This document shows positions 28,993 to 43,002 of a DNA stretch of 46,969 nucleotides, in pieces (position 1 is the stretch's first letter; each line of letters starts with the position of its first letter). The notes beneath the pieces are model-generated. The model did no database searches. It saw nothing but the letters and a program-made list of their open reading frames with translations, and was not told where the DNA came from. The DNA lies in the NCBI GenBank assembly GCA_943329845.2, contig CALQFM020000028.1:1-46969 (forward strand), written 5' to 3'. Source of the stretch: Candidatus Kuenenia stuttgartensis (GTDB lineage Bacteria; Pseudomonadota; Alphaproteobacteria; SMXS01). The translations under genes were made by a program, and so were the position numbers.

Positions 28993-30384
28993 TCAGGCCG
29001 CTGCCGCGTGCGCCTCGGCCAGGTCGCGCGGCAGACGCCGTGCGGCCAGATAGTAGAACAGCATGCTGAGCACGATCGGAACGGTCAGCGCCATCATGGC
29101 GTAGCGCAGGGATTCGCGGCCCAGCGACGGCGCCATCAGGTCGCTCAGCAACCCGACGATGAATGGGCCGAGCCCGCCGCCAATCACGTTCAGGCAGAAC
29201 AGCAGGAAGGCCGCCGCCAGTGCGCGCAGCCGCAGCGGCACCAGCTCCTGCACCAGCGCGAAGCTGGGGCCGGCGTGGAAGATGGCGAGCGACGCGGGCA
29301 GGGTCAGCAGCGCCAGGGTCAGCCACTGGTTGTTGGCCAGGAACGCGGCGATCGACAACGGCGCGGCGATGCTGGCGGTGATGCAGATGATCCACAGCCG
29401 CCAGCGCACGTCGCGCTTGCCGGTGCGGTCGGCCAGCCAGCCGCCGGCCAGGGTGCCGACGGCGCCGCCAACGCCGACCAGGATGCCGATGATCGGTCCG
29501 ATCTCGCCCGGGCTCAGTCCGTAGCTGCGGTGGAAGAACGCCGTCGCCCAGGCGATGGCGCCATAGCCGAACATGCCGGCGCAGGAGAATCCGGCAATGA
29601 TCCACAGGAGCGACCGGCGTTTAATGATGGTGCGAACTAGGTCCCCAAAGCCGAAGTCCCAAATCGCCACGATTATTTTTCGTAACCGACTAAATAGTTG
29701 ACCGTCGAACAAAATGCTCATGGCTGTTCCGGTCAAAGCTTCGGCCATACGAGTTTTGAATTTGACCCATTCCTCATCGTCAGGCTCATCCTTAAAGCCA
29801 TCCACGTATCCGCGGCGCGGCTCGCGCATGGCGGCGAGGATGATCAGCGCCATCAGCAGCCCGGGCACGCCGACGACGAGGAAAGCCATGCGCCAGCCGA
29901 AGGCCTCGGCCAGCATGCTGCCGGCGATGAAGCCGAACATGATGCCGAGATTGGGTCCCACGGCCAGCATCGCCATCGGCATCGCCCGCTCCTTGGGCGC
30001 GAACAGGTCGGAGACGATGCTCTGCGACGCAGGTCCCGCGCCCGCCTCGCCCACCGCGACGCCGATGCGCGCCAGGATGAGCTGCAGGGCGGTCGTCGCC
30101 AGGCCGCAGAACACGGTCATGGCGCTCCACACCGCGATGGCGGCCGCGATCAGGTTGCGGCGGTTGGCCCGGTCGGCCAGCAGCGCGAGCGGCACGCCGA
30201 GGATGGCGTAGAACACCGAGAACGCCGCGCCGGTCAGCAGCCCCATCACCTTGTCGGACAGGCTAAACTCGGCCTTCACCGGCTCGACCACCACGTTCAG
30301 CACCTGGCGGTCCACATTGGCGAAGATCTGCACCGCCAGCAGGAGGACCACGATGGTCCAGCGCCCGGCGGTTTCGGGCGACAT
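28993..30384 (-). CDS. Major facilitator superfamily transporter
   Basis: The 463-residue protein has 12 predicted membrane segments. The first loop carries the VDRQVLNVVVEPVKAEFSLSDK pattern of the organic-anion/hexuronate-like (spinster-type) MFS group, followed by the motif-A-like LADRANRRNL. Residues about 191-256, the cytoplasmic loop between helices 6 and 7, are unusually long and polar (EPDDEEWVKFKTRM, FSRLRKII). They are encoded by a conspicuously AT-richer patch at 29615-29810. The substrate is unknown. The start at 30384 is the first ATG. A TTG at 30450 would add 22 residues. Confidence 0.85.
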   Translation of the reverse strand: MSPETAGRWTIVVLLLAVQIFANVDRQVLNVVVEPVKAEFSLSDKVMGLLTGAAFSVFYAILGVPLALLADRANRRNLIAAAIAVWSAMTVFCGLATTALQLILARIGVAVGEAGAGPASQSIVSDLFAPKERAMPMAMLAVGPNLGIMFGFIAGSMLAEAFGWRMAFLVVGVPGLLMALIILAAMREPRRGYVDGFKDEPDDEEWVKFKTRMAEALTGTAMSILFDGQLFSRLRKIIVAIWDFGFGDLVRTIIKRRSLLWIIAGFSCAGMFGYGAIAWATAFFHRSYGLSPGEIGPIIGILVGVGGAVGTLAGGWLADRTGKRDVRWRLWIICITASIAAPLSIAAFLANNQWLTLALLTLPASLAIFHAGPSFALVQELVPLRLRALAAAFLLFCLNVIGGGLGPFIVGLLSDLMAPSLGRESLRYAMMALTVPIVLSMLFYYLAARRLPRDLAEAHAAAA

Positions 30385-30552
30385 GGTCGTCCGGTCTGCG
30401 GTGTCCAAGCAGAAAGCTCCCGTGGTTGTGGCGGGGACCTTAACGGGCAAGGCCAGCGTGCGCTACCGCTCTGAGGCGCGCCCGATGGCAACCCTTGGCG
30501 CGCGCACCGTCCCTGCACTAGCATCGGACCGGGTCTTGCAAGGGGCGGGGCG

Positions 30553-32220
30553 ATGTCGTCGATCACATACGCTGTGGATGCCGTGCCGCCGCTCCGGACG
30601 ACGTGGCTCAACGCGCTGCAGCACATCTCGCTCAGCGCGGTCACGCTGATCTTCCCCCGTATCGTGGCGCAGGCGGCCGGCGCCGATCCCGAAACCGTCA
30701 CCCGTTACGTCAGCCTGGCGATGGTGGCGATGGGCATCGGCACGCTGATCCAGGCCTATGGAAGGCGCGGCATCGGCTCGGGCCACCTGCTGCTGGGGCA
30801 CTGCACGATCCTCTACGTTCCTTTCGCGGTCGAGGCGGCGAAGGCCGGCGGGCTGGGCGCGGTCGCCGGGCTGACGATCGTCGCGGGACTGACCGAGATG
30901 GCGCTGTCGCGCTGTATCCGCGCCCTGCGCGCCTATGTGCCGCCGGAGATCATCGGCGTGGTCATCTCGCTGCTCGGCATCGCCCTCGGCGTGTTCGGGC
31001 TGAAACTGATGATCGGCGCCGGGCCGAACGGGCCGGTCGGGCCTAACGAACTGGCCGCCGCCGCCATCACCTTGGCAACCATCATCGGCGTCGCCATCTG
31101 GGGAACGCCGGGCCTGCGGTCGCTGGCGGTGCTGGTCGGCGTGGTGACGGGGTGCGTCGCCTATGCCGGTCTCGAGATCGCCTCGGGCGACGCAAGGGCG
31201 GCCGCGGCGAACATCGCGTTCATCGCGCCGGCCTGGCCGCTGTTCGCGCCGTCGTTTCCGGTCGCGTTCCTGCCGGGTTTCCTGATCGGTGCGCTGGCCT
31301 GCTTCGTGCGCGCCATGGCCGACCTGACCGCGTGCCAGCAGCTGACCGATCCCAACTGGAAGTCGCCCGACTTCAAGGCGATCCGCGCCGGCACGCTGGC
31401 CGACGGCATGGGCTGCGTCGTCGCGGGCGTCCTGGGCGTGCTGGGCACCAACACCTATTCGGGCAGCGTCGGCCTGGCCGCCGCCAACGGCGTCCATGCG
31501 CGGCGGGTCGGCGTCGCCGCGGGCGTCGGCTGGATCGCCCTCGGGCTCATCCCCGGCGCGGCCGGTGTGCTCTATGCGATCCCGGCCGACATCCTCGGCG
31601 CAGCGTGCTTCTACTCGGCCACCTTCACCCTCAAGACCGGCATCGGGATGCTGTCGCAGCGGCTGATCGACGCGCGCCGTACCCTGGTCATCGGCTCGGG
31701 CATCGTCGTCAGCGTGCTCGCCACCGACATCAAGGGCATGCTGCACCTGCCGTCGCTCGGCCAGCAGCTGATGAACTCGCCGCTCGCCACCGCCATGCTG
31801 GCGGCGCTGGCGCTCAACGCCGTGCTGCGGCTCGGCATTTCGAAGGACGCCAGCCTGCGCTGGCGGCCGGGCAATGCCGGCGCGCTTAAGGATTTCTGCG
31901 AGGCGCAGGGCCGCGCCTGGGGCGCGCGCGTCGACCTCATCAGGCGCGCGGGAAACTTCCTCGAGGAGTTCGCCATCCTCGCCCCGCGCCTCGCGCGGCC
32001 CGACACCGATGCCGGGCTCGAGTTGCGCTACGACGAGGTCGGCCTGCAGATCGAACTGTCATGGCAGGGCGAGCCCGTGAACCTGGGTGGCTCTGTCAAC
32101 ATGGAGGCCGACGACGGCAGCTTGCAGGTCACACTTATGCGGCACTGGGCCGATGAGATGAACCTGGACAGCAACAGTGATGATCGCCAGATCCTGGTGG
32201 CCTACGTCGATGACCGATGA
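30553..32220 (+). CDS. NCS2-type (uracil/xanthine) permease with extra C-terminal domain
   Basis: The 555-residue protein has a membrane part of about 430 residues with the nucleobase-ascorbate transporter pattern. It opens TTWLNALQHISLSAVTLIFP, contains the NCS2-like GVLGTNTYSGSVGLAAANGV, and has many GxxxG helices. The last 120 residues (434-555) are soluble and not part of NCS2 permeases. They contain NFLEEFAIL and DEVGLQIELSWQG, which resemble a histidine-kinase-type or anti-sigma ATPase fold. The substrate is likely a purine or pyrimidine. Start ATG at 30553, divergent from the MFS gene. Confidence 0.82.
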   Translation: MSSITYAVDAVPPLRTTWLNALQHISLSAVTLIFPRIVAQAAGADPETVTRYVSLAMVAMGIGTLIQAYGRRGIGSGHLLLGHCTILYVPFAVEAAKAGGLGAVAGLTIVAGLTEMALSRCIRALRAYVPPEIIGVVISLLGIALGVFGLKLMIGAGPNGPVGPNELAAAAITLATIIGVAIWGTPGLRSLAVLVGVVTGCVAYAGLEIASGDARAAAANIAFIAPAWPLFAPSFPVAFLPGFLIGALACFVRAMADLTACQQLTDPNWKSPDFKAIRAGTLADGMGCVVAGVLGVLGTNTYSGSVGLAAANGVHARRVGVAAGVGWIALGLIPGAAGVLYAIPADILGAACFYSATFTLKTGIGMLSQRLIDARRTLVIGSGIVVSVLATDIKGMLHLPSLGQQLMNSPLATAMLAALALNAVLRLGISKDASLRWRPGNAGALKDFCEAQGRAWGARVDLIRRAGNFLEEFAILAPRLARPDTDAGLELRYDEVGLQIELSWQGEPVNLGGSVNMEADDGSLQVTLMRHWADEMNLDSNSDDRQILVAYVDDR

Positions 32221-32241
32221 TGTTTGTCTGGGCAGAGTGGC

Positions 32242-32439
32242 ATGAAATTTTACTGGAGAAGATTCTTGAAGGCTGTCCAGAGGTTTTGGCGTCCTATGCC
32301 AGAAGGCTGGAAGATTGAGCTCATAGTCAGATTTTTACTTATAGGCGGGATCGTTGCGGCATTAATTCGATGTGATGAAAAGCGGATGGAAGAGAGGAAG
32401 ATGCATCAAAAAAGTTACCACTTCGACCGGTCTCGGTAG
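32242..32439 (+). CDS. Small AT-rich membrane protein, hypothetical
   Basis: The 65-residue open frame has one hydrophobic helix (ELIVRFLLIGGIVAALI, about residues 26-42) flanked by basic and charged ends. It starts 22 bases after the permease stop and overlaps the 3' end of the convergent VOC gene by 25 bases. Base and codon use are strikingly AT-rich compared with neighbours, suggesting recent acquisition or a non-coding insert. I do not recognise it. Confidence 0.45.
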   Translation: MKFYWRRFLKAVQRFWRPMPEGWKIELIVRFLLIGGIVAALIRCDEKRMEERKMHQKSYHFDRSR

Positions 32440-32939
32440 GGATCGGTCCCGTCCCACCCGACTGACGCATCGGCAATCCTGCCGAACAGATCCTGCAAAT
32501 CCGGCGTGTCCTCCAGCAGCTCGGTCATGATGCCGAAGGCGGGGCGGGTGTCGATGAAGCAGAAGCGGCGGGTGCCGACCGAACCCGAATGGGCGATTTC
32601 GAAGCCCTGCTTCAGGTAGCTTTCCAGTTCGCGGTCATAGTCCTCGACGATGGTGCCCATATGGTGCGGGCCGCTCTGGCCCGGAGCGAACACGTCGCGG
32701 AACGCCGACGGCGCATTGTCGTACTGGGTCAGCAGCTCGATCTGGATCGGCCCGGCCTGGGCGATGGCGCCGCTGAAATCCAGCTTCTGCGGCGTGCCGC
32801 GGTGGACGATGTCGAGCGTGTTGCGGGTGCCGTAGTAGAACGGGCCCACGCCCGAATGCTCGTACCAGTGGCGCATGGCCGCCTGGATGTCGTCGACGAA
32901 CCAGGCCATCTGCATGAACGTGCCGTTCGGAACCCGCAT
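32415..32939 (-). CDS. VOC (glyoxalase/extradiol dioxygenase-like) family protein
   Basis: The 174-residue protein has vicinal-oxygen-chelate features: FMQMAWFVDDIQAAMRHWYE at the start, IQIELLTQYDNAPSAFRD and PHHMGTIVEDYDRELESYLK in the second module, ending GIMTELLED. Candidate metal residues are the histidine of HHMG and the glutamates of IELL and TELLE. It is the third gene of the Rieske oxygenase 1 operon, 11 bases after the isomerase gene. It may open, isomerise or epimerise the oxygenase product. The reaction is unknown. Confidence 0.85.
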   Translation of the reverse strand: MRVPNGTFMQMAWFVDDIQAAMRHWYEHSGVGPFYYGTRNTLDIVHRGTPQKLDFSGAIAQAGPIQIELLTQYDNAPSAFRDVFAPGQSGPHHMGTIVEDYDRELESYLKQGFEIAHSGSVGTRRFCFIDTRPAFGIMTELLEDTPDLQDLFGRIADASVGWDGTDPYRDRSKW

Positions 32940-32950
32940 CGTATTCTCCC

Positions 32951-33799
32951 CTATGCTTTAACCTTGAACATGGCGGCCGCCGTGTCGTGGGACCGGCGCG
33001 CGGCGTCATCGAGCGTCATGGCGCGCACTGCGTCCGAGATCACCTCGCAGCCGAACGGGCCGGTGAAGCCCAGTCCGTCGATGGCCGCCAGATAGCCGGC
33101 GATGTCGACATCGCCGTCGCCGCAAAACCGGCGGCGCTTCCAGGTGTCTTCCAGCATGGTCCCCTCGACCTCGCGCGGCGCGTCGCACAGTTCGACGCCA
33201 AACAGACGCTCCGGCGGCAAGGCGGCGATCTCTTCCGGCGTCACGCCTGCCCGATCCAGGTGCCAGAAATCCAGGATCAGCCCGCCATTCGCCCGGCCCG
33301 CGCCCTCGACGATGGCGAGCGCCGTTGCCAGATCCATCACCACCGAGAACGGCACCATTTCCAGGCTGACCCTGGTGCCGGCCTTCGCGGCGGCGTCGCA
33401 CAACGCGCCGAAGGGATCGGTCATGTCATGCGCGGTCCATCGGCCCGCAAGCCCGCCGCCGATCTTCATCTGGAATGCGCCCAGCTCGCCGGCCGCCTCC
33501 AGCAGCAGAAGGCGCTCGGCATCGGAGGCGGCGCGCAACTCGCCGTCGGCGAACCAGTTGCGCAGGCATTCCACCTCCACATGCCGTATGCCGTTGCCGG
33601 CCAGCAGCGCGCGGATATCCGCCCAGTTCAGACTTTCGAGGCTGGCCGACAGGTCGCTGGCATAGAAGCCGAAGCCCGTGTAGCCGGCACGCGCCGCCGC
33701 TTCGATGCGGTCGCGCAGCGAATGCGGGCTGGCGCCGGTCGCAAGCGACGGCGGATGGTCGCCGGCGATGGTGAAATAGCTGGCCAGCAGGTCCGGCAC
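32951..33799 (-). CDS. Sugar phosphate isomerase/epimerase-like TIM barrel
   Basis: The 282-residue AP-endonuclease-2-type barrel has the segments GYTGFGFYASDL, LEMVPFSVVMDL, GLILDFWHLDRAG and LFGVELCDAPREVEG. These carry the Glu, Asp, His and Glu expected to bind a divalent metal. The start is a GTG (complement of 33797-33799), only 4 bases after the stop of the Rieske oxygenase gene, so the two are coupled. Members of this fold include hydroxypyruvate isomerase, inosose dehydratase and 3-dehydroshikimate dehydratase. The present substrate is not predictable. Confidence 0.85.
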   Translation of the reverse strand: MPDLLASYFTIAGDHPPSLATGASPHSLRDRIEAAARAGYTGFGFYASDLSASLESLNWADIRALLAGNGIRHVEVECLRNWFADGELRAASDAERLLLLEAAGELGAFQMKIGGGLAGRWTAHDMTDPFGALCDAAAKAGTRVSLEMVPFSVVMDLATALAIVEGAGRANGGLILDFWHLDRAGVTPEEIAALPPERLFGVELCDAPREVEGTMLEDTWKRRRFCGDGDVDIAGYLAAIDGLGFTGPFGCEVISDAVRAMTLDDAARRSHDTAAAMFKVKA

Positions 33800-33803
33800 G
33801 GAG

Positions 33804-35186
33804 CTACTCGCCGATATATTTGGCCAGCGTCTCGTGCACCCGCCGGATGCGGGATTCCTGGTAGGTGGACAGGCTGGCCTTGCCTTTCCTGCTGCCGCGC
33901 ATGCCTTCCTGCTGCCAGCGCATGATGCTCGTGTCCTGGTTGTAGACGCTGGCGACGAACGGATCGAGGCCCGGCACCATGGCGAACGAATCCTCCTCGC
34001 GCAGCCGCACCGGCTCGGCCGGGTCGGGACGCCCGTCCTCGGGCCGGAACGGCCGCAGCCGCATGGTTTCCATCACGCAGCGGTTGGGATCGTTGCCGAT
34101 GGGCCGGAACACGGTCATCTGGGCGCTGGTCAGGCCCGCGTTCACCATCACGTTGGGGAATACGTTGTACTTCAGGGAATCGACGATCTCGGCGTCGGAC
34201 AGGTTCGACAGGTCCATGCCGAACTTTTCCGCGAAGTTCCGGCGCATGGCTTCGGCGATGACGATTCGCGCGGTCTTGCCTTCCGGCACCAGCATGCGGC
34301 CATTGCCCTTGGCGGTGCTGGGATCGCCCAGGAACATGCTGTCCAGCAGTTCCTGCTCGGTCTTGGGCTGGGCGGTCGGGCTGGTCACGCCCATGGCGCT
34401 CAGGTCGCGGCTGACATTGTCGCCGAAGATGTCGTGCTGCAGGTTCCAGTCGCTGACCACCGTGGTCAACTCGGGATGGACGACGGGCGTGTGATAGGCC
34501 TCCATGAACGCCTCCAGCGCCACCTTCCAGTTGCAGTACAATTCTTTCTGGAAATGGATGTAGGTGTACCAGTTGGTCAGGTCGCGCTTGGCGAAGTGCT
34601 CCGGCAGCACCTCGAGATAGTCCAGCAGCGGCCTGGCGTTCTCGTCCATGTTGATGAACACGAAGGTGTTCCATGCCTCGACCTTCACCTCCGGCAGGCG
34701 GTTCGCCTCGTAGTCCAGGTACTTGAACTCCCACGCGCACGGCACCTCGTTCAGCGTGCCGTCAAGGTTCCAGGTCCAGCCGTGGAACGGGCATTGCAAC
34801 TCGCCGCTCCGGCCACTGGTGCCGGACGGCTTCAGCTTGGTGCCGCGATGCAGGCAGGAATTGTAGTAGCCGCGCAGGCCGTCCCCGGTGCGGACGACGA
34901 TGATCGACCAGTCGCCGATGTCGTGCACCCAGTAGTCGCCGACCTCGGGAATGTGCTCCTCGCGGCAGACGAACTGCCAGACGCGCGGCCACATGCGCTC
35001 CATCTCCAGGTCGAAGAACGCCTGGGAGGTGTACTGCTCGAGCGGGATGTCGTCGGTGGGCTGGGGCGGGTTGGACTTCAGCGCCAGCAACGGCGCGACC
35101 GGCGTGCTGTCCGTGGCGATGATGTCCTGGTAGCTGCGGAAGGGCGGCGCGTCGGCCCGGGAGAACTTGGTGATGTGCTCGTTCAT
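33804..35186 (-). CDS. Rieske non-heme iron oxygenase alpha subunit 1
   Basis: The 460-residue protein has the Rieske cluster ligands C111-x-H113 (NSCLHRG) and C132-x2-H135 (CPFHGW). The mononuclear iron site is H232 and H237 in FMEAYHTPVVH, with the third carboxylate probably in YNQDTS near the C-terminus. The residue bridging electrons between subunits is E229, where naphthalene-dioxygenase types have Asp. Glu is known at this place in carnitine oxygenase CntA. A GGGGA site lies upstream of the ATG. It heads an operon with the TIM barrel and VOC genes and is divergent from a TetR gene. No reductase or beta subunit is nearby. Confidence 0.92.
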   Translation of the reverse strand: MNEHITKFSRADAPPFRSYQDIIATDSTPVAPLLALKSNPPQPTDDIPLEQYTSQAFFDLEMERMWPRVWQFVCREEHIPEVGDYWVHDIGDWSIIVVRTGDGLRGYYNSCLHRGTKLKPSGTSGRSGELQCPFHGWTWNLDGTLNEVPCAWEFKYLDYEANRLPEVKVEAWNTFVFINMDENARPLLDYLEVLPEHFAKRDLTNWYTYIHFQKELYCNWKVALEAFMEAYHTPVVHPELTTVVSDWNLQHDIFGDNVSRDLSAMGVTSPTAQPKTEQELLDSMFLGDPSTAKGNGRMLVPEGKTARIVIAEAMRRNFAEKFGMDLSNLSDAEIVDSLKYNVFPNVMVNAGLTSAQMTVFRPIGNDPNRCVMETMRLRPFRPEDGRPDPAEPVRLREEDSFAMVPGLDPFVASVYNQDTSIMRWQQEGMRGSRKGKASLSTYQESRIRRVHETLAKYIGE

Positions 35187-35206
35187 TGCATTCGTCCCCG
35201 TTAGCA

Positions 35207-35224
35207 ATTAGACATTTGTCTAAT
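35207..35224. promoter_or_regulatory. 18-bp operator palindrome between Rieske 1 and TetR
   Basis: ATTAGACA-TT-TGTCTAAT has perfect 8-base arms with a 2-base centre. It sits in the middle of the 65-base gap between the two divergent starts. This is a classical position and shape for TetR autoregulation plus control of the oxygenase operon. Confidence 0.8.
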
Positions 35225-35251
35225 ACTGATGGCCCGGCCAGGCAAGGATTG

Positions 35252-35908
35252 ATGTCCACGGTGCGCAAGCGGGATGCGGCGGCAACGCGCGAGAAGATCC
35301 TCGACGCGGCCGAGGAGTTGTTCGCCGAGCGGGGCTATCATGGCGTGTCCATTCGCGAAATCGTCGGCCGCGCCGGTGTCGATCTGGCGCTGGTGCATTA
35401 CTATTTCGGGCCGAAGGATGCGCTGTTCCGCGAGGTGCTCGAGCGCCGCGGCGTCGAGCACGCCGCCGATCACATGGCCGCGCTTGAAAAGCTGAACGCC
35501 GAGTCGAACGGTCCGCCGGGGGTGGCCGCGCTGATCCGCGCCTTCTGCGAGCCCATGTTCGAAAAGATGAGCCGTGGTCCGCAATGGCGGAACTACATGC
35601 ACCTACTGGCGCACCGGGCTCTCGCGCGCCAGAGCGAGGTCTTCCTGGCACCCTACGAGAAGACCTTCGAGCCGATGACCCGCGCCTTCATCGCCGCGTT
35701 CCGCGAGGCACTGCCGGACGCCGAAGAGAACAACCTGTTCCACGCCGTCTATTTCATGCACGGCGCCATCGTCTACGCGCTGGCCGAAACCGGCGCCATC
35801 GAGCGGCTGTCCGACGGCAAGATGGATGGCTCGGATTTCAATACCCTGCTGGACAGGTTCGTGCCGTTCTTCACGGCCGGGTTCATGGCGCTGGCGAAGC
35901 CGGCGTAG
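35252..35908 (+). CDS. TetR-family transcriptional regulator
   Basis: The 218-residue protein starts at 35252. An ATG at 35186 would overlap the oxygenase start and is rejected. The helix-turn-helix is EKILDAAEELFAERGYHGVS, REIVGRAGVDLALVHYYFGPK. The C-terminal domain (RRGVEHAADHMAALEKL, FMHGAIVYALAETG) resembles ligand domains of regulators for aromatic compounds, without a firm match. It almost certainly binds the palindrome at 35207-35224 and represses the Rieske 1 operon until an unknown substrate is present. Confidence 0.92.
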   Translation: MSTVRKRDAAATREKILDAAEELFAERGYHGVSIREIVGRAGVDLALVHYYFGPKDALFREVLERRGVEHAADHMAALEKLNAESNGPPGVAALIRAFCEPMFEKMSRGPQWRNYMHLLAHRALARQSEVFLAPYEKTFEPMTRAFIAAFREALPDAEENNLFHAVYFMHGAIVYALAETGAIERLSDGKMDGSDFNTLLDRFVPFFTAGFMALAKPA

Positions 35909-35943
35909 GACCGGTTACTGCTGAAGCATCCACCATCCCTATC

Positions 35944-36017
35944 CCGTGTCCCTGAGCTTGTCGAAGGGCCTTGCACCAGCGCTCGTGCAGGACCCTTCGA
36001 CAAGCTCAGGGACACGG
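35944..36017. repeat. 74-bp palindromic repeat with 25-bp perfect arms
   Basis: The left arm 35944-35968 (containing CTGAGCTTGTCGAAGGG) is the exact reverse complement of 35993-36017. The 24-base centre holds a further TGCAC...GTGCA stem. It lies between the convergent TetR gene and the 62-residue gene, where it could terminate both. Elements with this CTGAGCTTGTCGAAGGG core are common intergenic repeats in GC-rich proteobacteria. Confidence 0.9.
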
Positions 36018-36057
36018 TGGAGGATGTGAGTTGCAAAGGCAGTGGTGCGCGGCGCTC

Positions 36058-36246
36058 TCACCCCTTCAGCAGCGCGACGAAGTCGATCATGTGCGGGTCG
36101 GCGTCCCTGATCTCGCCGTCGATCCAGCGGCCGTTGCCCCTGAAGCGGCCGCTCTTGCCCGTGGCCGGGTCGTGGACGGCGACGGTGCCGTCCTCCTGCC
36201 TTGTGTAGACGCGCCCGTCGATGGCGCTGGTCCGCGAAACCGTCAT
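36058..36246 (-). CDS. Small hypothetical protein coupled to Rieske oxygenase 2
   Basis: The 62-residue protein has a beta-rich look: DGRVYTRQEDGTVAVHDP, then GKSGRFRGNGRWIDGEIRDA and DPHMIDFVAL. No domain is recognised. The start at 36246 has GAGGAT upstream. An upstream in-frame ATG at 36291 overlaps the oxygenase stop and is less likely. It follows Rieske oxygenase 2 by 51 bases on the same strand. Its position suggests an accessory or small subunit, but there is no sequence proof. Confidence 0.65.
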   Translation of the reverse strand: MTVSRTSAIDGRVYTRQEDGTVAVHDPATGKSGRFRGNGRWIDGEIRDADPHMIDFVALLKG

Positions 36247-36297
36247 GCTATCCTCTGAAACGAAGGACCCGGCCGAGGCCGGGTCCTGCAACGCGCG

Positions 36298-37692
36298 CTA
36301 TTCGGCGTTGATGTATTCGTCGATCTTCCAGTGCAGGTGGCGCACCCGGCTTTCCTGGTAGTTGGCCAGGGTCACGCCCTTTTTCAGCGACTTCATGCCC
36401 TTCTGCACCATCGGCATGTTGGTCATGTCCTGCTGGAACACGCCGGCCAGGCCGCCGATCTCGTCCTCGGCGACGATCCATTCCTGGTCCTCGCCCAGCA
36501 GGCGCATGGGCGCCGGATCGGGCCGCGGTCCGTTCAGGTCGTAGTCGCTGAGGATGAACACCTCCATCAGCGCCGAATCCGGGTTCAGCCCGTCGGGGCG
36601 GAAGCGGTAGGTGATGTTGGTGCCCATGCCGCCCCAGGGGAAGAAATTGGGGAACACGAAATACTGGATGGCGTCGAGCATCTCGCTGTCGGTGGCGTCC
36701 GAATAGTCGCGGTTCTTGGCCGCGCCCACCTGCTTGCGCCGCATCTCGGCCATGTACTGGCGGGCGGTCATGCCCTCGGGCACCTTGAACTCGTTCATGG
36801 CCATGCCCATGCGATAGGCGCGCGGCGTCATCGAGTCGACGATGGCCTGCTCCTCCATCGGCGGGATATGTGGGCTCTGCACGCCCATGGCGGTGATCAT
36901 GCGGTTGTAGTTCAGCTTGGGATCGACGTCGTACTGGGTGTTGGCGTCAGCCGTGGACGGCATGATCTGTGGATGGGTGGCGACCACGTGGAAGCTTTCG
37001 GCGAACGCCTCGATGCCGACCTTCCAGTTCATGTCCACGCGCTTGGCGATGTGGTTCATGACGTACTTGTTCTTGAAGTCCCAGCGCTCGAATTCCGGGA
37101 TCATGTCGCCCAGGAAACTTTCCAGGCTTTCGGCGTTGTCATCCATGTTGATGAACACGAAGCCGCCCCAGGTGCCAACCTTGACTTCCGGCAGGGCATA
37201 TTCGGCGTCGACGATGTGCGGGAAATCCCAGCGGCAGGGGAAATCGCTCAGCGTACCGTCGAGGGTCCAGGTGAAGCCGTGGAACGTGCAGCGCAGCTCG
37301 GTGGCGTTGCCATGGGTGCCTTCCGGCTTCAGCTGGTTGCCGCGGTGCAGGCAGGCGTTCCAGTAGGCCTTGATGGTCTCGGGTTCGGTGCGGATCACCA
37401 GAAACGACCATTCGCCGATCTCATAGGTGATGAAGTCGCCCACTTCCGGGATGTGTTCCTCGCGGCAGGCGAACTGCCAGACCTTGGTCCACATCTTGTC
37501 CATCTCGAGCCGGGCGAATTCCGGGTCGGTCCAGCGCGACGTCGGCAGCCGGTCCGAGCCCATGTGGACGTTGAAGTTCTTGCGCAGCACCGGCGGCACC
37601 GGAAGCTTCTCGCGATCGAGCAGCTCCTGCACGGAAATGGCTTCCGAGCGGGCCTCGCCGGGCTTCAGCGTCTTGGGGTTCTCGATGTTCAT
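36298..37692 (-). CDS. Rieske non-heme iron oxygenase alpha subunit 2
   Basis: In this 464-residue protein the cluster ligands are C114, H116 (NACLHRG), C135 and H138 (CTFHGF). The iron site is H235/H240 in FAESFHVVATH with bridging E232. The probable Asp ligand is in FQQDMTN. It shares its N-terminal LKPGEAR, the ligand numbering and PEVKVGTWGGFVFIN with Rieske oxygenase 3, so the two are close paralogs. The start at 37692 follows GAGGAG. A 26-bp palindrome at 37749-37774 lies in its promoter region. Confidence 0.92.
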   Translation of the reverse strand: MNIENPKTLKPGEARSEAISVQELLDREKLPVPPVLRKNFNVHMGSDRLPTSRWTDPEFARLEMDKMWTKVWQFACREEHIPEVGDFITYEIGEWSFLVIRTEPETIKAYWNACLHRGNQLKPEGTHGNATELRCTFHGFTWTLDGTLSDFPCRWDFPHIVDAEYALPEVKVGTWGGFVFINMDDNAESLESFLGDMIPEFERWDFKNKYVMNHIAKRVDMNWKVGIEAFAESFHVVATHPQIMPSTADANTQYDVDPKLNYNRMITAMGVQSPHIPPMEEQAIVDSMTPRAYRMGMAMNEFKVPEGMTARQYMAEMRRKQVGAAKNRDYSDATDSEMLDAIQYFVFPNFFPWGGMGTNITYRFRPDGLNPDSALMEVFILSDYDLNGPRPDPAPMRLLGEDQEWIVAEDEIGGLAGVFQQDMTNMPMVQKGMKSLKKGVTLANYQESRVRHLHWKIDEYINAE

Positions 37693-37748
37693 GGCTCTGC
37701 TCCTCGTTTCGCGGTGGCGTGCGGTAAAAGCCCGGTTGAACACGTTCC

Positions 37749-37774
37749 ATATTTGACCGGTTCTGGTCAAATAT
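37749..37774. promoter_or_regulatory. 26-bp operator palindrome upstream of Rieske oxygenase 2
   Basis: ATATTTGACC-GGTTCT-GGTCAAATAT has perfect 10-base arms. It lies 57-82 bases upstream of the Rieske 2 start in a 274-base gap otherwise without genes (37693-37966). No regulator gene is adjacent, and the sequence differs from the site at 35207, so the controlling protein is probably encoded elsewhere. Confidence 0.7.
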
Positions 37775-37966
37775 TATGGCGCGTTCGGCCCGTTTCCTGC
37801 GCCCTGAATATTTCTCACCTTTATTCAATCGGCGCAAGAACCCGAGGGCCAGGTCATGGCTGATGACGGAGACGCATTCGCGGACACTATTTTATGCACA
37901 TGTGATTGTTCCCATATACAGGAAGATCCGCGAAGAGGCGAACAAAACCACCAGCGCCGCCGACAA

Positions 37967-38446
37967 CTACAGGCCGATCGCGCTCAGTCCCGGATGGTCG
38001 TCGGGCCGCCGGCCGAGCGGCCAATGGAATTTCCGCTCACCGGCAGGGATGGGCAGGTCATTGATGCTGGCAATGCGCAGGCGCATCAGTCCACCCTCTT
38101 CGAATTCCCAGTTTTCGTTGCCATAGCTGCGGAACCAGAAACCACTGTCGTCATGCCATTCATAGGCAAAGCGGACGGCGATGCGGTTCTCGCGAAACGC
38201 CCAGAGTTCCTTGATCAGCCGGTAATCCAGCTCCCGCGCCCATTTGCGGGCGAGGAACGCCTCGATCGCCACGCGGCCCTCGACGAATTCGGCACGGTTG
38301 CGCCACCGGCAGTCGGCTGTATAGGCCAGCGCCACACGTGCCGGATCGCGGCTGTTCCATCCATCCTCGGCGAGGCGCACCTTCTCGAGCGCGCCTTCCA
38401 GCGTGAAGGGCGGCAGGGGCGGACGGGATTCGGTCTGCATGGTCAT
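37967..38446 (-). CDS. NTF2-like protein (DUF1348 type)
   Basis: The 159-residue SnoaL/NTF2-like protein has the DUF1348 pattern: [40 protein letters not shown] and [20 protein letters not shown], then [21 protein letters not shown]. Its ATG overlaps the stop of the PPOX gene (ATGA). NTF2-like folds often bind or isomerise hydrophobic substrates. The role here is unknown. Confidence 0.88.
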
Positions 38447-39072
38447 TCTCCTTTCGCCGCGGCCAACGCCTGTCGAAGCGCGGCGTTTTCATTCTCCAGC
38501 TGTTCCATTCGGGCGCGCAAAGGCGCCAGCGCCGTCTCGATCTCGGCTTGCGTGAAGCGGGGCGTGATGTGTTGCGGGCAATTCCAATCGAACGCTTCGA
38601 GGTGCAGCACGATCGCGCGTTCCGGCCTGGCCTTGTAGCCGGGCAGGGCAAGCTGCTCCGCCAAGACTGCGTCGCTGGCCAGTTCCCTCTCTTCGGCACG
38701 GGCGTAGATCTTCAGGCGGCGGCGGTTGGGATAGTCCATCAGGATCAGCGCGACCCGGTCGTTGGCAGCCAGATTGCCGACACTGATATACTGCCGGTTG
38801 CCGCGAAAATCCGCGAACGCCAGCGTCCTGTCGTCCAGCACGCGCAGAAACCCCGCGGGTCCGCCGCGATGCTGGACATAGGGCCAGCCGGTCTCGCCGA
38901 CGCTTGCCACGTAGAAGCTGTCACGGGCGGCGATGAACTGCATTTCCGTATCCGTGAATCGGTCGAACTGCCGGTCGGTCTTCGAGAGTGACCAATGTTC
39001 GCCGCTGCCATTGGCCGCCTGCGCCGACTTGACGCTCGGGGTCATGGCGATGTCGAGGAATCCATAGGCCAT
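38443..39072 (-). CDS. Pyridoxamine 5'-phosphate oxidase-like flavin protein
   Basis: The 209-residue split-barrel (PPOX) protein contains [39 protein letters not shown] and [19 protein letters not shown], typical of FMN- or F420-binding PPOX members. The tail from about residue 180 is a predicted coiled coil ([17 protein letters not shown]), unusual for the family. The ATG at 39072 has better spacing to GGGAG than the ATG at 39078. It is the middle gene of the 39674-37967 operon. Confidence 0.87.
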
Positions 39073-39128
39073 AGTCATTCTCCCTTCGCAACTGGGCCGG
39101 ACCGGGGGGTGCCGGTCCGGCCGATTGG

Positions 39129-39674
39129 TCATGCGGCCTGCGCGGCCTGCACCACCGGGAAATCGATGTCGGTCTGCGCGACATTGTTGACCAGGTTGGT
39201 GAACACGTTCTCCGCCACGACGGCGACGATCTCGATGATCTGGGCATCGCTGAACCCCGCCAGCTTGACGGCGTCCAGATCAGCGCCGCTGACGCGGCCG
39301 CGCGTCTCCGCAACCCTGGCGGCGAAGCGTACAGCGGCATCAGCCTTGGGATCGCCTGACGCGCCGCGCCTGTTCAGGGCAACCTCCTCGGCAGTGAGTT
39401 TGGCCAGGTTCAGGGCCAGGTAGGTATGGGCCGACAGGCAGTAGTCACAGCCATTGACCTGCGCGACTGCCAGCGCGATGCGCTCCCTGGTTCTCACGTC
39501 GAGGGCCTTGGTCAGTGCGCCGCCAAGCGAGGTCAGGCCGGTCAGCGCGGCGGTGCTCGACGACACGAGCAGGAAGAGGTTGGGGACAACACCCAACTGC
39601 TTCTGGACGGCATCAAGGATGGGCCGCGAGGCGGCGGGTGCGTCATCGCGGGTCGGAATGGCAAGGCGGGACAT
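39129..39674 (-). CDS. Carboxymuconolactone decarboxylase / AhpD-like peroxidase-related protein
   Basis: The 181-residue protein has the AhpD-type redox pair CDYC within AVAQVNGCDYCLSAHTYLA, followed by the histidine of the active site. The C-terminal GFSDAQIIEIVAVVAENVFTN is standard. The long upstream extension of this open frame lies within the LysR promoter and gene and is discarded. GGAGAG precedes the ATG. It is the first gene of a likely CMD-PPOX-NTF2 operon divergent from the LysR gene. Confidence 0.9.
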   Translation of the reverse strand: MSRLAIPTRDDAPAASRPILDAVQKQLGVVPNLFLLVSSSTAALTGLTSLGGALTKALDVRTRERIALAVAQVNGCDYCLSAHTYLALNLAKLTAEEVALNRRGASGDPKADAAVRFAARVAETRGRVSGADLDAVKLAGFSDAQIIEIVAVVAENVFTNLVNNVAQTDIDFPVVQAAQAA

Positions 39675-39734
39675 CGGGGCTCTCCATCTGGATGTGGCCG
39701 TGATTGGCCGGACAGGAGAGACCCTATTAAATTT

Positions 39735-39753
39735 CATATTTCGTAGTAATATG
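39735..39753. promoter_or_regulatory. Inverted repeat in the LysR/CMD gap
   Basis: CATATT-TCGTAGT-AATATG is a perfect 6-7-6 inverted repeat in an AT-rich island between the divergent LysR and CMD genes, adjoining the T-N11-A box at 39754-39772. Confidence 0.45.
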
Positions 39754-39772
39754 GTATTATTGATAGTGATAC
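39754..39772. promoter_or_regulatory. LysR-type T-N11-A binding box
   Basis: GTAT-N11-ATAC is the canonical LysR box, lying 23 bases before the LysR start in the AT-rich divergent promoter. Confidence 0.55.
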
Positions 39773-39794
39773 TCTCAATATTTGGAATAAGTAG

Positions 39795-40709
39795 ATGGAC
39801 CGCATCGAGGCCATGTCCATCCTGGTCGCCGCCGTCGAAACCGGCAGCTTCTCGGCGGCCGCCCGCAAACTTGGCACGTCCCTTCCGACCGTCAGCCGCA
39901 AGGTGGCGGAGTTGGAAGCGCATCTCAACGCCCGGTTGCTGATTCGATCGACGCGCAAGCTGACGCTGACCGATGCAGGGGACGCGTATGTAGCCGCGTG
40001 TCGGCGGATCCTGGAGCAGCTGGACGAAGCGGAACGGGCGGCTTCTGGCGAATACAGCACGCCCAAGGGCGATCTGGTCATTACCGCGCCGGTGGTGTTT
40101 GGCCGGCTGCATGTGCTGCCGGTGGTGACGGCGTTTCTTGCCGCCTACCCGCAGATCAACGTGCGGCTGGCGCTCTCCGACCGCAATGTGCATCTGATCG
40201 ACGATCACATGGATGTGGCGGTGCGGATTGGCGCATTGCCTGACAGTGGCCTTGTCGCCGCCCGCGTGGGCGCCGTGCGGCACATCGTGTGCGGCAGCCC
40301 GGCCTTTTTCGCCGCACACGGCGCGCCAACGCAACCGGTCGACCTGCGGGCGATGCCCTGTATCAGCTTCGACGGCATTGCGCCGGCGGCATCCTGGAGC
40401 TTCGCCGACCGTGGCTCCGGTGCACCGAAGCCGGTTGCCATTTCCCCCCGCCTTTCGGTCAACACGGCGGAAGCTGCCATCGACGCGGCGATAGCCGGGC
40501 TCGGCCTCACGCGCGTGCTGTCCTATCAGGCCGCTGCTGCCGTCGCGGCGGGGAAACTCAACATCGTCCTGGCCGACTTCGAGCCGGAGCCTTTGCCCAT
40601 CCATCTGGTTCATGCCAGGCAGGGCATGGCGCCGTTGAAGCTGCGGGCGTTCCTGGATTTCGCCGGGTCCCGTATCCGCGAACGGGTGGCTGCTTTCGCG
40701 CTCGTTTAG
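39795..40709 (+). CDS. LysR-family transcriptional regulator
   Basis: The 304-residue protein has an N-terminal winged helix-turn-helix, SILVAAVETGSFSAAARKLG, TSLPTVSRKVAELEAHLNAR, and a periplasmic-binding-like effector domain (VVFGRLHVLPVVTAFLAAYP, DHMDVAVRIGALPDSGLVAA). It belongs to the DhcR/YafC-like branch by its MDRIEAM start. It should regulate the divergent CMD-PPOX-NTF2 operon through the boxes at 39735-39772. Confidence 0.93.
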   Translation: MDRIEAMSILVAAVETGSFSAAARKLGTSLPTVSRKVAELEAHLNARLLIRSTRKLTLTDAGDAYVAACRRILEQLDEAERAASGEYSTPKGDLVITAPVVFGRLHVLPVVTAFLAAYPQINVRLALSDRNVHLIDDHMDVAVRIGALPDSGLVAARVGAVRHIVCGSPAFFAAHGAPTQPVDLRAMPCISFDGIAPAASWSFADRGSGAPKPVAISPRLSVNTAEAAIDAAIAGLGLTRVLSYQAAAAVAAGKLNIVLADFEPEPLPIHLVHARQGMAPLKLRAFLDFAGSRIRERVAAFALV

Positions 40710-40725
40710 GCAGCCGTATCGATTT

Positions 40726-42111
40726 TCAGCGCGTCAGATATTTGTCCAGGGTCTGGTGGATGTGCCGCACGCGCGCTTCCTGGTAGTTGCCCAGGGTGAT
40801 GCCTGGCTTTCTGGCCGCCTTGAGGCCAATCTGCAGCCGCTCCAGGTTGGAGGTGTCCTGGTCGAACACGGGGCCGAGGCCGCCCAGCTCCGGCGCGTCC
40901 GAGAACATCTCGTCGTCGCGCAGGATGTGCAGCGGCGCCGGCTCTGGACGCGGGCCGTCCTTCGGGCAGGGCCGCAGGATCAGGATGTCCATGATCGAGC
41001 TGTCCGGGTCGTTGCCGTTGGGCCGGAAGCGGTAGACCAGCGGCACGGTGATGTTCGCCCAGGGGTGGAAGTTGGGGAACAGGAAGTACTCGATGGTGTC
41101 GAGCGTCTCGCTGATGCTCAGGTGCGACAGGTCGGTGCCCAGCGCCGGTCCGATCGAGTCCTGCACGCCTTTCGCGATCACCTGCCGCGCGGTCATGCCA
41201 TCGGGCACCTTCAGCATGTTGCCCTCGCCGGCGTGCCCCAGATCCATCAGCATGGCGTCGGCGATCACCTGCTGGCTGACCTCGCCCAGATGCGGGCTGG
41301 CGACGGCCTGGGTGTTGAGCTGGCGGCTGACATGGTCGCCCCAGATGTCGTACTGCGAGTTGGCGTCGCCCAGATAGGCCAGCGCCTGCGGGTGCGTCGC
41401 CAGCACGTGATAGGATTCCATGAAGGCTTCCTGCGTCACCTTCCAGTTGCAGCGGATCACCTTGCGGACATTGGCGACGATCGCCCGGTCCTCCAGCGGC
41501 CACAGCTTCATCTGCTCGGGCAGCACGCCCAGATAGTCCTCGAAGGGCTGGCAGTCCTCGTCGGGATTGATGAACACGAACCCGCCCCACGTGCCCACCT
41601 TCACCTCCGGCAGGCGGAACGCCTCGTCGGTCACCTTGGGGAAATCCCAGCGGCAGGGGATTTCCTTCAGGCTGCCGTCCAGGTTCCAGGTCCAGCCGTG
41701 GAAGGGGCAGCGGAACTGCGCCGCCGATCCGGCCGAGTCGGAAGGGCGAAGCTGGGTGCCGCGGTGCAGGCAGGAATTGACGTACGCCTTGATCCGGCCG
41801 GTATCGGTGCGCACCATCAGGAATGAATAGTCGGCGATGCCGTATTCCATGTAATCGCCTGGCTCGGGGATCTCCTCCTCGCGGCAGGCGAACTGCCAGA
41901 CCTTCGACCACATCCTGGCCACTTCCAGGTCGTGGAAGGCGTGGCTGGTGTAGCGCTCGGTGGGAATGTCGCCGTCGCCGAGGAAGCGGTAGGACTGCTC
42001 CCGCAGCACCGCGGGCACGTTCTGGCCGTCCGCGGCGATGATGTCTTGGGCGCTCGGGCCGGGACAGCGCGCCTCTCCGGGCTGCAACGACTTCGTGGCC
42101 TGAACGTTCAT
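40726..42111 (-). CDS. Rieske non-heme iron oxygenase alpha subunit 3
   Basis: In this 461-residue protein the cluster ligands are C114, H116 (NSCLHRG), C135 and H138 (CPFHGW). The iron site is H235/H240 in FMESYHVLATH with bridging E232, and the likely Asp ligand is in FDQDTSN. Ligand positions are identical in number to Rieske oxygenase 2. The C-terminus QEARVRHIHQTLDKYL matches the other two paralogs. It is transcribed alone, convergent with the LysR gene and divergent from the enoyl-CoA hydratase gene. No electron-transfer partner is encoded nearby. Confidence 0.92.
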   Translation of the reverse strand: MNVQATKSLQPGEARCPGPSAQDIIAADGQNVPAVLREQSYRFLGDGDIPTERYTSHAFHDLEVARMWSKVWQFACREEEIPEPGDYMEYGIADYSFLMVRTDTGRIKAYVNSCLHRGTQLRPSDSAGSAAQFRCPFHGWTWNLDGSLKEIPCRWDFPKVTDEAFRLPEVKVGTWGGFVFINPDEDCQPFEDYLGVLPEQMKLWPLEDRAIVANVRKVIRCNWKVTQEAFMESYHVLATHPQALAYLGDANSQYDIWGDHVSRQLNTQAVASPHLGEVSQQVIADAMLMDLGHAGEGNMLKVPDGMTARQVIAKGVQDSIGPALGTDLSHLSISETLDTIEYFLFPNFHPWANITVPLVYRFRPNGNDPDSSIMDILILRPCPKDGPRPEPAPLHILRDDEMFSDAPELGGLGPVFDQDTSNLERLQIGLKAARKPGITLGNYQEARVRHIHQTLDKYLTR

Positions 42112-42207
42112 CGCGTCTCCCCTTGCCGATGACTTCCGCCGATTTTACGCCAACAATGCGTGGCGCGCGACTCATGTCGCGAAAGTCGGGGCGCGAAGGG
42201 GAGACAG

Positions 42208-43002
42208 ATGGATTATTCGTCCTATCAACACCTGCTGGTCGAGCGGCGGGACAAGGTGCTGCGGGTGACGTTGAACCGGCCCGAAGTGCTCAACGCGGTC
42301 AACGCGCGGCTGCATTACGAGCTGTCCCACATCTGGGACGACGTGATGTATGACGACGAGGTCGACGTGGTCGTGCTCACCGGCGCGGGCCGGGCCTTCT
42401 CGGCGGGCGGCGACTTTCCCTGGCTGCTCGAGGGGCTGAAGACCCGCACCGTCGGCAAGCTGTCTAGCTACGAGGCCAAGCGGGTCGTGTTCAACCTGCT
42501 GGAGTGCGAGAAGCCGGTGATCTGCCGCATGAATGGCGACGCCATCGGCCTCGGCGCCACGCTGGCGCTGTGCTGCGACATGGTGATCGCCGCCGACACC
42601 GCCCGCATCGGCGACCCGCATGTGCGCGCCGGCCTGGTGGCGGGCGACGGCGGTGCGGTGCTGTGGCCCCAGCTGATCGGCTATGTCCGCGCCAAGTATT
42701 ATCTGATGACCGGCGACCTCATCGACGCGAAGGACGCGGTGGACATGGGGCTGATCAACCGCGCGGTGCCGGAGGCCGAGCTGGATGCGTCGGTCGACAA
42801 GCTGGCCGGCAAGCTGGTCAGCGGCGCCACCAAGGCGATCCGCTGGACCAAGGTCTCCGCCAACATCGCGCTCAAGCAGCTCGTCCATGGCGTGTTCGAC
42901 GCCGGCATCGCCTATGAGCTGATGACCCAGATCGCCGACGACCATGCCGAGGCGGTGCATTCCTTCGTCGACAAGCGAAAGCCGAAGTTCACCGGCTCGT
43001 GA
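42208..43002 (+). CDS. Enoyl-CoA hydratase/isomerase family protein
   Basis: The 264-residue crotonase-fold protein has the CoA-binding and oxyanion-hole segments VTLNRPEVLNAVNARL, GAGRAFSAGGDFPWLL and MNGDAIGLGATLALCCDMV. The usual catalytic glutamate regions are altered: IGDPHVRAGLVAGDGGAVLW has Asp where many hydratases have Glu. Hydratase activity is therefore not certain. The start at 42208 follows AAGGGGAG. It is divergent from Rieske oxygenase 3 and upstream of the SCP2 gene in one unit. Confidence 0.87.
   Translation: MDYSSYQHLLVERRDKVLRVTLNRPEVLNAVNARLHYELSHIWDDVMYDDEVDVVVLTGAGRAFSAGGDFPWLLEGLKTRTVGKLSSYEAKRVVFNLLECEKPVICRMNGDAIGLGATLALCCDMVIAADTARIGDPHVRAGLVAGDGGAVLWPQLIGYVRAKYYLMTGDLIDAKDAVDMGLINRAVPEAELDASVDKLAGKLVSGATKAIRWTKVSANIALKQLVHGVFDAGIAYELMTQIADDHAEAVHSFVDKRKPKFTGS

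Follow-up and report, generated by a model that had tools for sequence, protein, structure and literature searches.

The 46,969-nucleotide contig CALQFM020000028.1 of assembly GCA_943329845.2 (Candidatus Kuenenia stuttgartensis; GTDB lineage Alphaproteobacteria, SMXS01), referred to here in its full length as the window, carries a gene for a Rieske oxygenase (RO), RO1, followed closely on the same strand by genes for a TIM-barrel protein (TIM) and a VOC protein (VOC). A TetR-family regulator gene diverges from RO1, and an operator-like palindrome lies between the two start codons. The genome that holds the window is coded G000, and other genomes carry further G codes.

Gene organization of the locus

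The features of the locus are as follows.
32415-32939, minus strand: VOC, Glyoxalase_4-type protein of 174 amino acids (Pfam PF13669)
32951-33799, minus strand: TIM, xylose-isomerase-like (AP_endonuc_2) barrel of 282 amino acids, GTG start (Pfam PF01261)
33804-35186, minus strand: RO1, Rieske non-haem iron oxygenase alpha subunit of 460 amino acids (Pfam Rieske and Ring_hydroxyl_A)
35207-35224, between the divergent starts: operator-like palindrome ATTAGACA-TT-TGTCTAAT, two 8-bp arms around TT
35252-35908, plus strand: TetR-family regulator, ATG start (Pfam TetR_N and TetR_C_30)

All four proteins score above the Pfam gathering thresholds, in agreement with the family labels proposed in a first-pass annotation of the DNA. 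The coordinates likewise agree with the spacings reported there: the GTG start of the putative isomerase begins 4 bases after the RO1 stop codon, and 11 bases separate TIM from VOC. RO1 and TetR are divided by a spacer of 65 bp. A longer RO1 open reading frame (ORF) with a TTG start, reaching 35207, is a mechanical call; the ATG form ends at 35186.

Conservation of RO1, TIM and VOC among relatives

In our sample of 10 genomes of the order, RO1 is carried by five (G000, G003, G005, G006 and G007; 83-100% identity); in the remaining five, the best match reaches 45-65% identity. All four of the other carriers hold a TetR orthologue at 92-98% identity. TIM and VOC are intact in only two of the five carriers, G000 and G006, which share 94% and 97% amino-acid identity in TIM and VOC, respectively; the pair is decayed in two carriers and absent in one. 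Behind RO1, G003 retains about 44 nucleotides of the start of TIM and then continues into the region of an MFS transporter gene. G005 retains about 69 nucleotides of TIM with a changed start codon, followed by approximately the last 56 codons of VOC (the C-terminal part, codons about 119-174) and then by the MFS gene, an NCS2 permease gene being missing there too. G007 has neither TIM nor VOC, and the NCS2 gene is reached about 250 bases behind RO1. In window coordinates, the sequence missing behind RO1 amounts to 3271 bases in G003 and 1602 in G007; in G005, 1149 bases are missing, and another 2016 past the VOC scrap.

The TIM and VOC scraps align at 85-89%, which is about the nucleotide identity of RO1, and the pair was therefore probably ancestral to these lineages. 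From this pattern of remnants, TIM and VOC were probably lost, rather than gained, in the lineages of G003, G005 and G007. The number of losses may be one to three, and support for the position of G003 in the rooted RO1 tree is just 59%. Elsewhere in these three genomes, the best TIM paralogues reach 31-33% identity over part of the length, and the best VOC copies 44%, the G005 scrap apart.

RO1 stays under purifying selection in the absence of TIM and VOC, since the ratio of nonsynonymous to synonymous substitution rates (dN/dS) is 0.107 between G005 and G007, both of which lack the pair. The corresponding value is 0.085 between G000 and G006, and it lies between 0.16 and 0.27 for the other pairs of genomes. 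Between the two carriers of the intact genes, dN/dS is 0.105 for TIM and 0.223 for VOC.

A conserved palindrome between RO1 and TetR

The 18-bp palindrome noted in the first-pass annotation is indeed present, but its position is only roughly midway between the divergent starts, since its distance to the ATG codon is 20 bases on the RO1 side and 27 on the TetR side. Allowing up to three mismatches, this is the sole match in the window, and none of 100 shuffles gave one. Between 35150 and 35300, a general repeat finder set to lengths of at least 12 reported no inverted repeats. The form with 7-bp arms, ATTAGAC-N4-GTCTAAT, is present in five of the 10 order genomes, each time as a single copy located in this spacer, and these are the same five that hold RO1; the reversed control pattern has no occurrence in any of the 10. 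Across the five carriers, 17 of the 18 palindrome bases are invariant versus 28 of 44 other spacer bases (Fisher P = 0.011; 62 of the 65 spacer bases taken).

TetR is the presumed repressor of RO1-TIM-VOC and of its own gene. Its best match among 18 in NCBIfam is the PsrA-type repressor NF053516, at 98.6 bits versus a cut-off of 300, and we rejected assignment to that type. The regulator PheR of PMC13273656 belongs to the IclR family and is not comparable with the TetR protein found here.

Tree conflict and probable cassette exchange

Three further genes of the same block are conserved in all five carriers, as are TetR and RO1.
28993-30450 (outer ORF limits), minus strand: MFS transporter at the other end of the block (Pfam)
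36298-37686 (aligned region; start codon not fixed), minus strand: RO2, second Rieske oxygenase of the block
40726-42111, minus strand: RO3, third Rieske oxygenase of the block

Following RO1 in its reading direction, the genes are RO3, LysR, CMD, PPOX, DUF1348, RO2, TetR, RO1, TIM, VOC, NCS2 permease and MFS, where three sets vary between genomes: LysR to DUF1348, TIM with VOC, and the NCS2 permease.

The trees of RO2 and RO3 pair G006 with G007. Those of TetR and RO1 share one topology, in which G000 pairs with G006 and G005 with G007. In approximately unbiased (AU) tests comparing just these two topologies, that of the flank was rejected by RO1 (P 4e-40) and TetR (2e-87), and that of the cassette by RO2 (7e-4), RO3 (0.014) and MFS (0.008). 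Because the TetR and RO1 tree conflicts with RO2, RO3 and MFS, the TetR-RO1 segment was probably exchanged between lineages by recombination as an allelic cassette, with the presence of TIM and VOC following the segment. A concatenated tree of the five genes was dropped since its genes conflict.

Features of the three enzymes

RO1 belongs to the alpha subunits of Rieske non-haem iron oxygenases, as it carries the CxH...CxxH motif and a 2-His-1-carboxylate site. In alignment numbering, C112, H114, C133 and H136, which we take to be the Rieske ligands, and E230, H233, H238 and D419, presumably the iron site, are invariant in all six aligned ROs. The best NCBIfam match is GbcA, at 118 bits versus a cut-off of 670. 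The best solved sequence match is the carnitine monooxygenase CntA (PDB 6y9c; E 2e-27), which covers RO1 residues 47-244 only, so that the substrate pocket is not comparable; the Glu at the bridging position is presumably as in CntA. No reductase or ferredoxin partner was found among the 13 genes scanned in 28993-43002, where a short ORF at 36058-36291 is free of cysteine and other short ORFs were left unscanned. Many ROs use unlinked reductases, and the missing reductase gene thus does not exclude RO1 from the family. Predicted structure models were too poor for a fold search (mean predicted local distance difference test score 44 for TIM and 36 for RO1).

Relatives of RO1 at about 62% identity directly adjoin an acyl-CoA dehydrogenase gene identified with Pfam (L039 6245-8932 and L036 6511-9225), and a third such neighbour, whose family was not scanned, occurs in L037. 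These neighbours hint at pathways through CoA thioesters.

TIM is a member of PF01261 (80.3 bits versus a gathering score of 31.1), with candidate metal-site residues E147, D177, E203 and E252, plus H180. Across an alignment of nine members, E147, D177, H180 and E252 do not vary; at position 203, eight have Glu and L093 has Gln. Gln also occupies the equivalent position in the closest PDB entries, Lmo2234 and the TIM domain of 5hmq. The latter is labelled 4-hydroxyphenylpyruvate dioxygenase in the PDB; we take it to be QuiC1, a 3-dehydroshikimate dehydratase, and we likewise assume the metal-ligand roles and the Glu-Asp-Gln-Glu ligand set of that enzyme. TIM and QuiC1 align over TIM residues 18-262 and share three of the four metal-ligand positions as well as the His after the Asp. 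They differ in that QuiC1 has Gln in place of Glu203 and a fused second domain missing from TIM. The first-pass label of isomerase need not apply to TIM, as a dehydratase domain is among its nearest solved relatives.

VOC is a member of PF13669 (47.1 bits versus 27) with no NCBIfam match. Its candidate metal ligands E68, H93 and E140 are invariant in all eight aligned sequences, and Q10 is conserved in seven, the eighth having His. PADLOC returned nothing for TIM or VOC. A quinate/shikimate route made up of a QuiC-like TIM and VOC was rejected: TIM scores 69.3 bits against the QuiC family NF042435 (cut-off 1200), its Glu203 departs from the Glu-Asp-Gln-Glu site, and VOC matches Glyoxalase_4 only.

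The trio and its pairs in other genomes

A search of genome_contigs for the trio returned one locus, that of G006 (record CAMBYA010000001.1). Among 111 fetched loci, every TIM match with a relative of RO1-RO3 (E 1e-6) and also one of VOC no more than 5 kb away came from G000 or G006; for many of these loci the flank extends only about 1.5 kb, and KshA-type genes fall outside the E threshold. Scoring the best six candidates per genome in 385 genomes of the class and 398 of the phylum, TIM matched at least four and at least eight genomes, respectively, at E 1e-20, and a TIM profile matched at least one and at least three at E 1e-45, G000 included. Plasmid searches with the trio proteins gave no trio among the best 15 records each, and viral contigs gave no match. 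Among the papers listed for this gene combination (12 of 179 and 2 of 2), no title or abstract opening describes an RO-TIM-VOC trio. The searches of the order, class, phylum, genome_contigs and plasmids thus show the trio in G000 and G006 only and do not support a widespread module. The first-pass annotation had named a gene order conserved in no relative as a refutation of its proposal. One close relative, G006, does keep the order. No more distant TIM relative among the fetched loci, many with about 1.5 kb of flank, shows the trio.

Relatives of TIM (34-42% identity; 39-42% for the loci detailed here) occupy other oxidative catabolic clusters. In G680 the gene adjoins an intradiol dioxygenase gene in the company of GFO/IDH/MocA dehydrogenases, and in Agrobacterium it lies two SDR genes from an intradiol dioxygenase, with a maleylacetate reductase. 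In Sphingobium TomMM15 it stands between two FAD_binding_2 proteins, with a VOC relative about 12 kb away. On plasmids pMSHV of Sphingobium herbicidovorans and pTomTYG72a of Sphingobium sp. TomTYG72, the TIM gene (about 41-42% to ours) adjoins an oxidoreductase gene with CoA-pathway genes nearby, and a Rieske oxygenase gene lies 2-3 kb away (L108 5992-9828 and L105 11992-16728). These two loci differ from ours: the C-terminal domain of the oxygenase is of the KshA type (3-ketosteroid 9alpha-hydroxylase family) instead of Ring_hydroxyl_A, other genes lie between it and TIM, and there is no VOC relative within 5 kb. The KshA_C neighbour is a hint at steroid-like substrates. Based on the metal-site residues, the solved relatives and the neighbours of its relatives, we infer that TIM would abstract a proton next to a ring carbonyl, resulting in isomerisation or dehydration, with perhaps steroid-like or other cyclic ketones as substrates.

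The pairing of RO with VOC is found more widely. On pNL2 of N. aromaticivorans and p1 of Novosphingobium strain ES2-1, three annotated RO alpha subunits have VOC and NTF2-like genes between them (RO-NTF2-RO-VOC-NTF2-RO), the first RO being 44% identical to RO1 and the VOC 43% to ours; unlike our locus, these clusters have no TIM-barrel match, contain a P450 and an FAD oxidoreductase, and follow another gene order. On plasmid Mpl of Novosphingobium sp. PP1Y, a TetR gene precedes an RO 52.5% identical to RO1, and the VOC gene behind that RO overlaps it by 4 bases. The differences there are a VOC of another subgroup (21% to ours), a TetR gene on the same strand, an SDR gene behind and no TIM match. 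RO and VOC are also neighbours at G001:C38. Judging from these neighbourhoods, RO with VOC is a recurring theme, and TIM placed between them is the local novelty.

Interpretation and alternatives

We consider it likely that the locus represents a TetR-controlled catabolic RO1 core to which TIM and VOC are appended in one cassette allele, where they would extend or divert the product yet be dispensable. Since close relatives lost the pair while keeping RO1 and its switch, TIM and VOC would not be needed for the role of RO1, and the trio appears to be a local version of a common kind of catabolic operon rather than a fixed three-step pathway. Regulation, co-transcription, reaction order and chemistry would, as far as sequence can indicate, be as follows. 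TetR, bound to the 18-bp palindrome, would keep its own promoter and that of RO1 blocked until displaced by an inducer, which would be either the substrate or an early product. RO1 would then hydroxylate an alicyclic or aromatic compound with a reductase encoded elsewhere. With the help of a divalent metal, TIM might remove a proton beside a carbonyl, so that the hydroxylated ring is isomerised or dehydrated, and VOC might then epimerise or isomerise the product of TIM. The compact, inducible module put forward in the first-pass annotation is partly supported, by a compact probable operon and a conserved operator-like palindrome shared with an apparently co-inherited divergent TetR gene. An obligate sequence of three steps is not supported, as TIM and VOC are intact in two of five carriers while RO1, TetR and the palindrome are kept in all five.

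Several observations weigh against the reading of a dispensable appendix carried by an exchanged cassette. Between cassette types, RO1 shares 83-84% amino-acid identity with dN/dS about 0.25; in view of this larger divergence, the role of RO1 may have shifted when TIM and VOC were lost, which would weaken the argument that they are not needed. The losses may also go back to one G005-like deletion that later eroded further in G003 and G007. The best MFS tree fits neither topology, and the far flank is therefore only weakly informative. Synonymous divergence (dS) between G000 and G006 is 0.255 for TIM versus 0.099 for RO1 and 0.079 for VOC, which makes the cassette itself a mosaic; the divergence of TIM sits in its 3' part (window 33456-32957, 89-90% identity). 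Finally, no promoter of the sigma-70 type was reported for the spacer between RO1 and TetR.

It could instead be that RO1, TIM and VOC do act in sequence on one substrate, and that relatives without TIM and VOC use paralogues for the second and third steps. The tight packing of the genes, the order kept in G006, the purifying selection on TIM and VOC, and the 20 VOC homologues in the genome that could substitute are all in line with such a pathway, and the KshA-type gene near TIM on the two Sphingobium plasmids hints at joint TIM-Rieske chemistry. However, the three genomes that lost TIM have no close paralogue of it, and no trio was seen outside two species, and we regard a genuine three-step pathway as unlikely. 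Alternatively, TIM and VOC might be a pair of passenger genes that came to lie behind RO1 and serve an unrelated pathway, their proximity not being functional. While the varied partners of TIM relatives elsewhere and the three of five RO1 carriers without an intact pair would suit this explanation, the scraps show that the pair was formerly present in lineages now without it, so it did not land recently in G000 and G006. The gaps of just 4 and 11 bases behind RO1 and the recurrence of a Rieske neighbour of TIM in Sphingobium also speak against it, and we regard a passenger pair as very improbable.

Reading the locus as a conserved core with a dispensable appendix offers a lesson for the interpretation of tight bacterial clusters, as two of the three closely packed genes would be decaying additions to a regulator and oxygenase that are conserved. 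The locus further draws attention to a small order of bacteria whose genomes hold many Rieske oxygenase genes, and it singles out a TIM-barrel subfamily that merits assays, although its wider value is modest without chemistry. A bolder proposal, which we hold to be rather improbable, is that TIM belongs to a small subfamily with an all-acidic metal site (Glu-Asp-Glu-Glu) whose members dehydrate or aromatise the cyclic hydroxy-ketones that Rieske oxygenases produce (RO1 in this locus, the KshA-type enzymes in Sphingobium), and that two interchangeable cassette alleles, with and without TIM and VOC, are swapped by recombination. If true, the subfamily would represent a new ring-processing route, and cassette swaps would switch the pathway end product between strains.

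Rieske oxygenase richness and variable neighbours

Within its 3.68 Mb, G000 contains 59 matches homologous to RO1, of which some are incomplete or lie at contig ends, together with 20 VOC matches. In the nine other genomes of the order, the number of RO matches ranges from 28 to 59. With 59 first-look PF00848 candidates, G000 is second to one genome with 62 among the genomes listed from a class sample of 289 (the best 10 or so candidates per genome scored; 124 genomes without a match stand outside the list). A comparable expansion of ring-hydroxylating dioxygenases is reported for SAR202 group VII (PMC6946804). Nine of the 20 VOC homologues of G000 lie within 5 kb of one of the 59 RO homologues (2.7 expected, P 0.0007), and proximity at 500, 1000 and 2000 bp is near chance (1, 3 and 3; P 0.60, 0.10 and 0.21), in a test where neighbouring genes are not independent and contig ends are ignored.

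Within the block, the NCS2 permease gene (30553-32220, between VOC and MFS) is present in G000, G006 and G007, the G006 match being split over two frames, and has no match in the G003 and G005 stretches. A second variable cassette occupies 37967-40706 between RO2 and RO3 (DUF1348, PPOX, CMD and a divergent LysR gene). All four genes are found in G000 and G005, G003 has no CMD match, and the G006 and G007 stretches have none of the four. The ORF at 36058-36291, 6 bases behind RO2 on the same strand, encodes 77 amino acids (62 from its ATG) and resembles a real short gene. Just past the TetR gene, a 19-base inverted repeat pair (CCCTTCGACAAGCTCAGGG) spans 35950-36011, and none of 100 shuffles had one. 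The pair recurs at the same place in G006 and G007 and at a second place in G007 (L076), is not found in the G003 or G005 stretches, and is perhaps a REP-like or terminator hairpin element.

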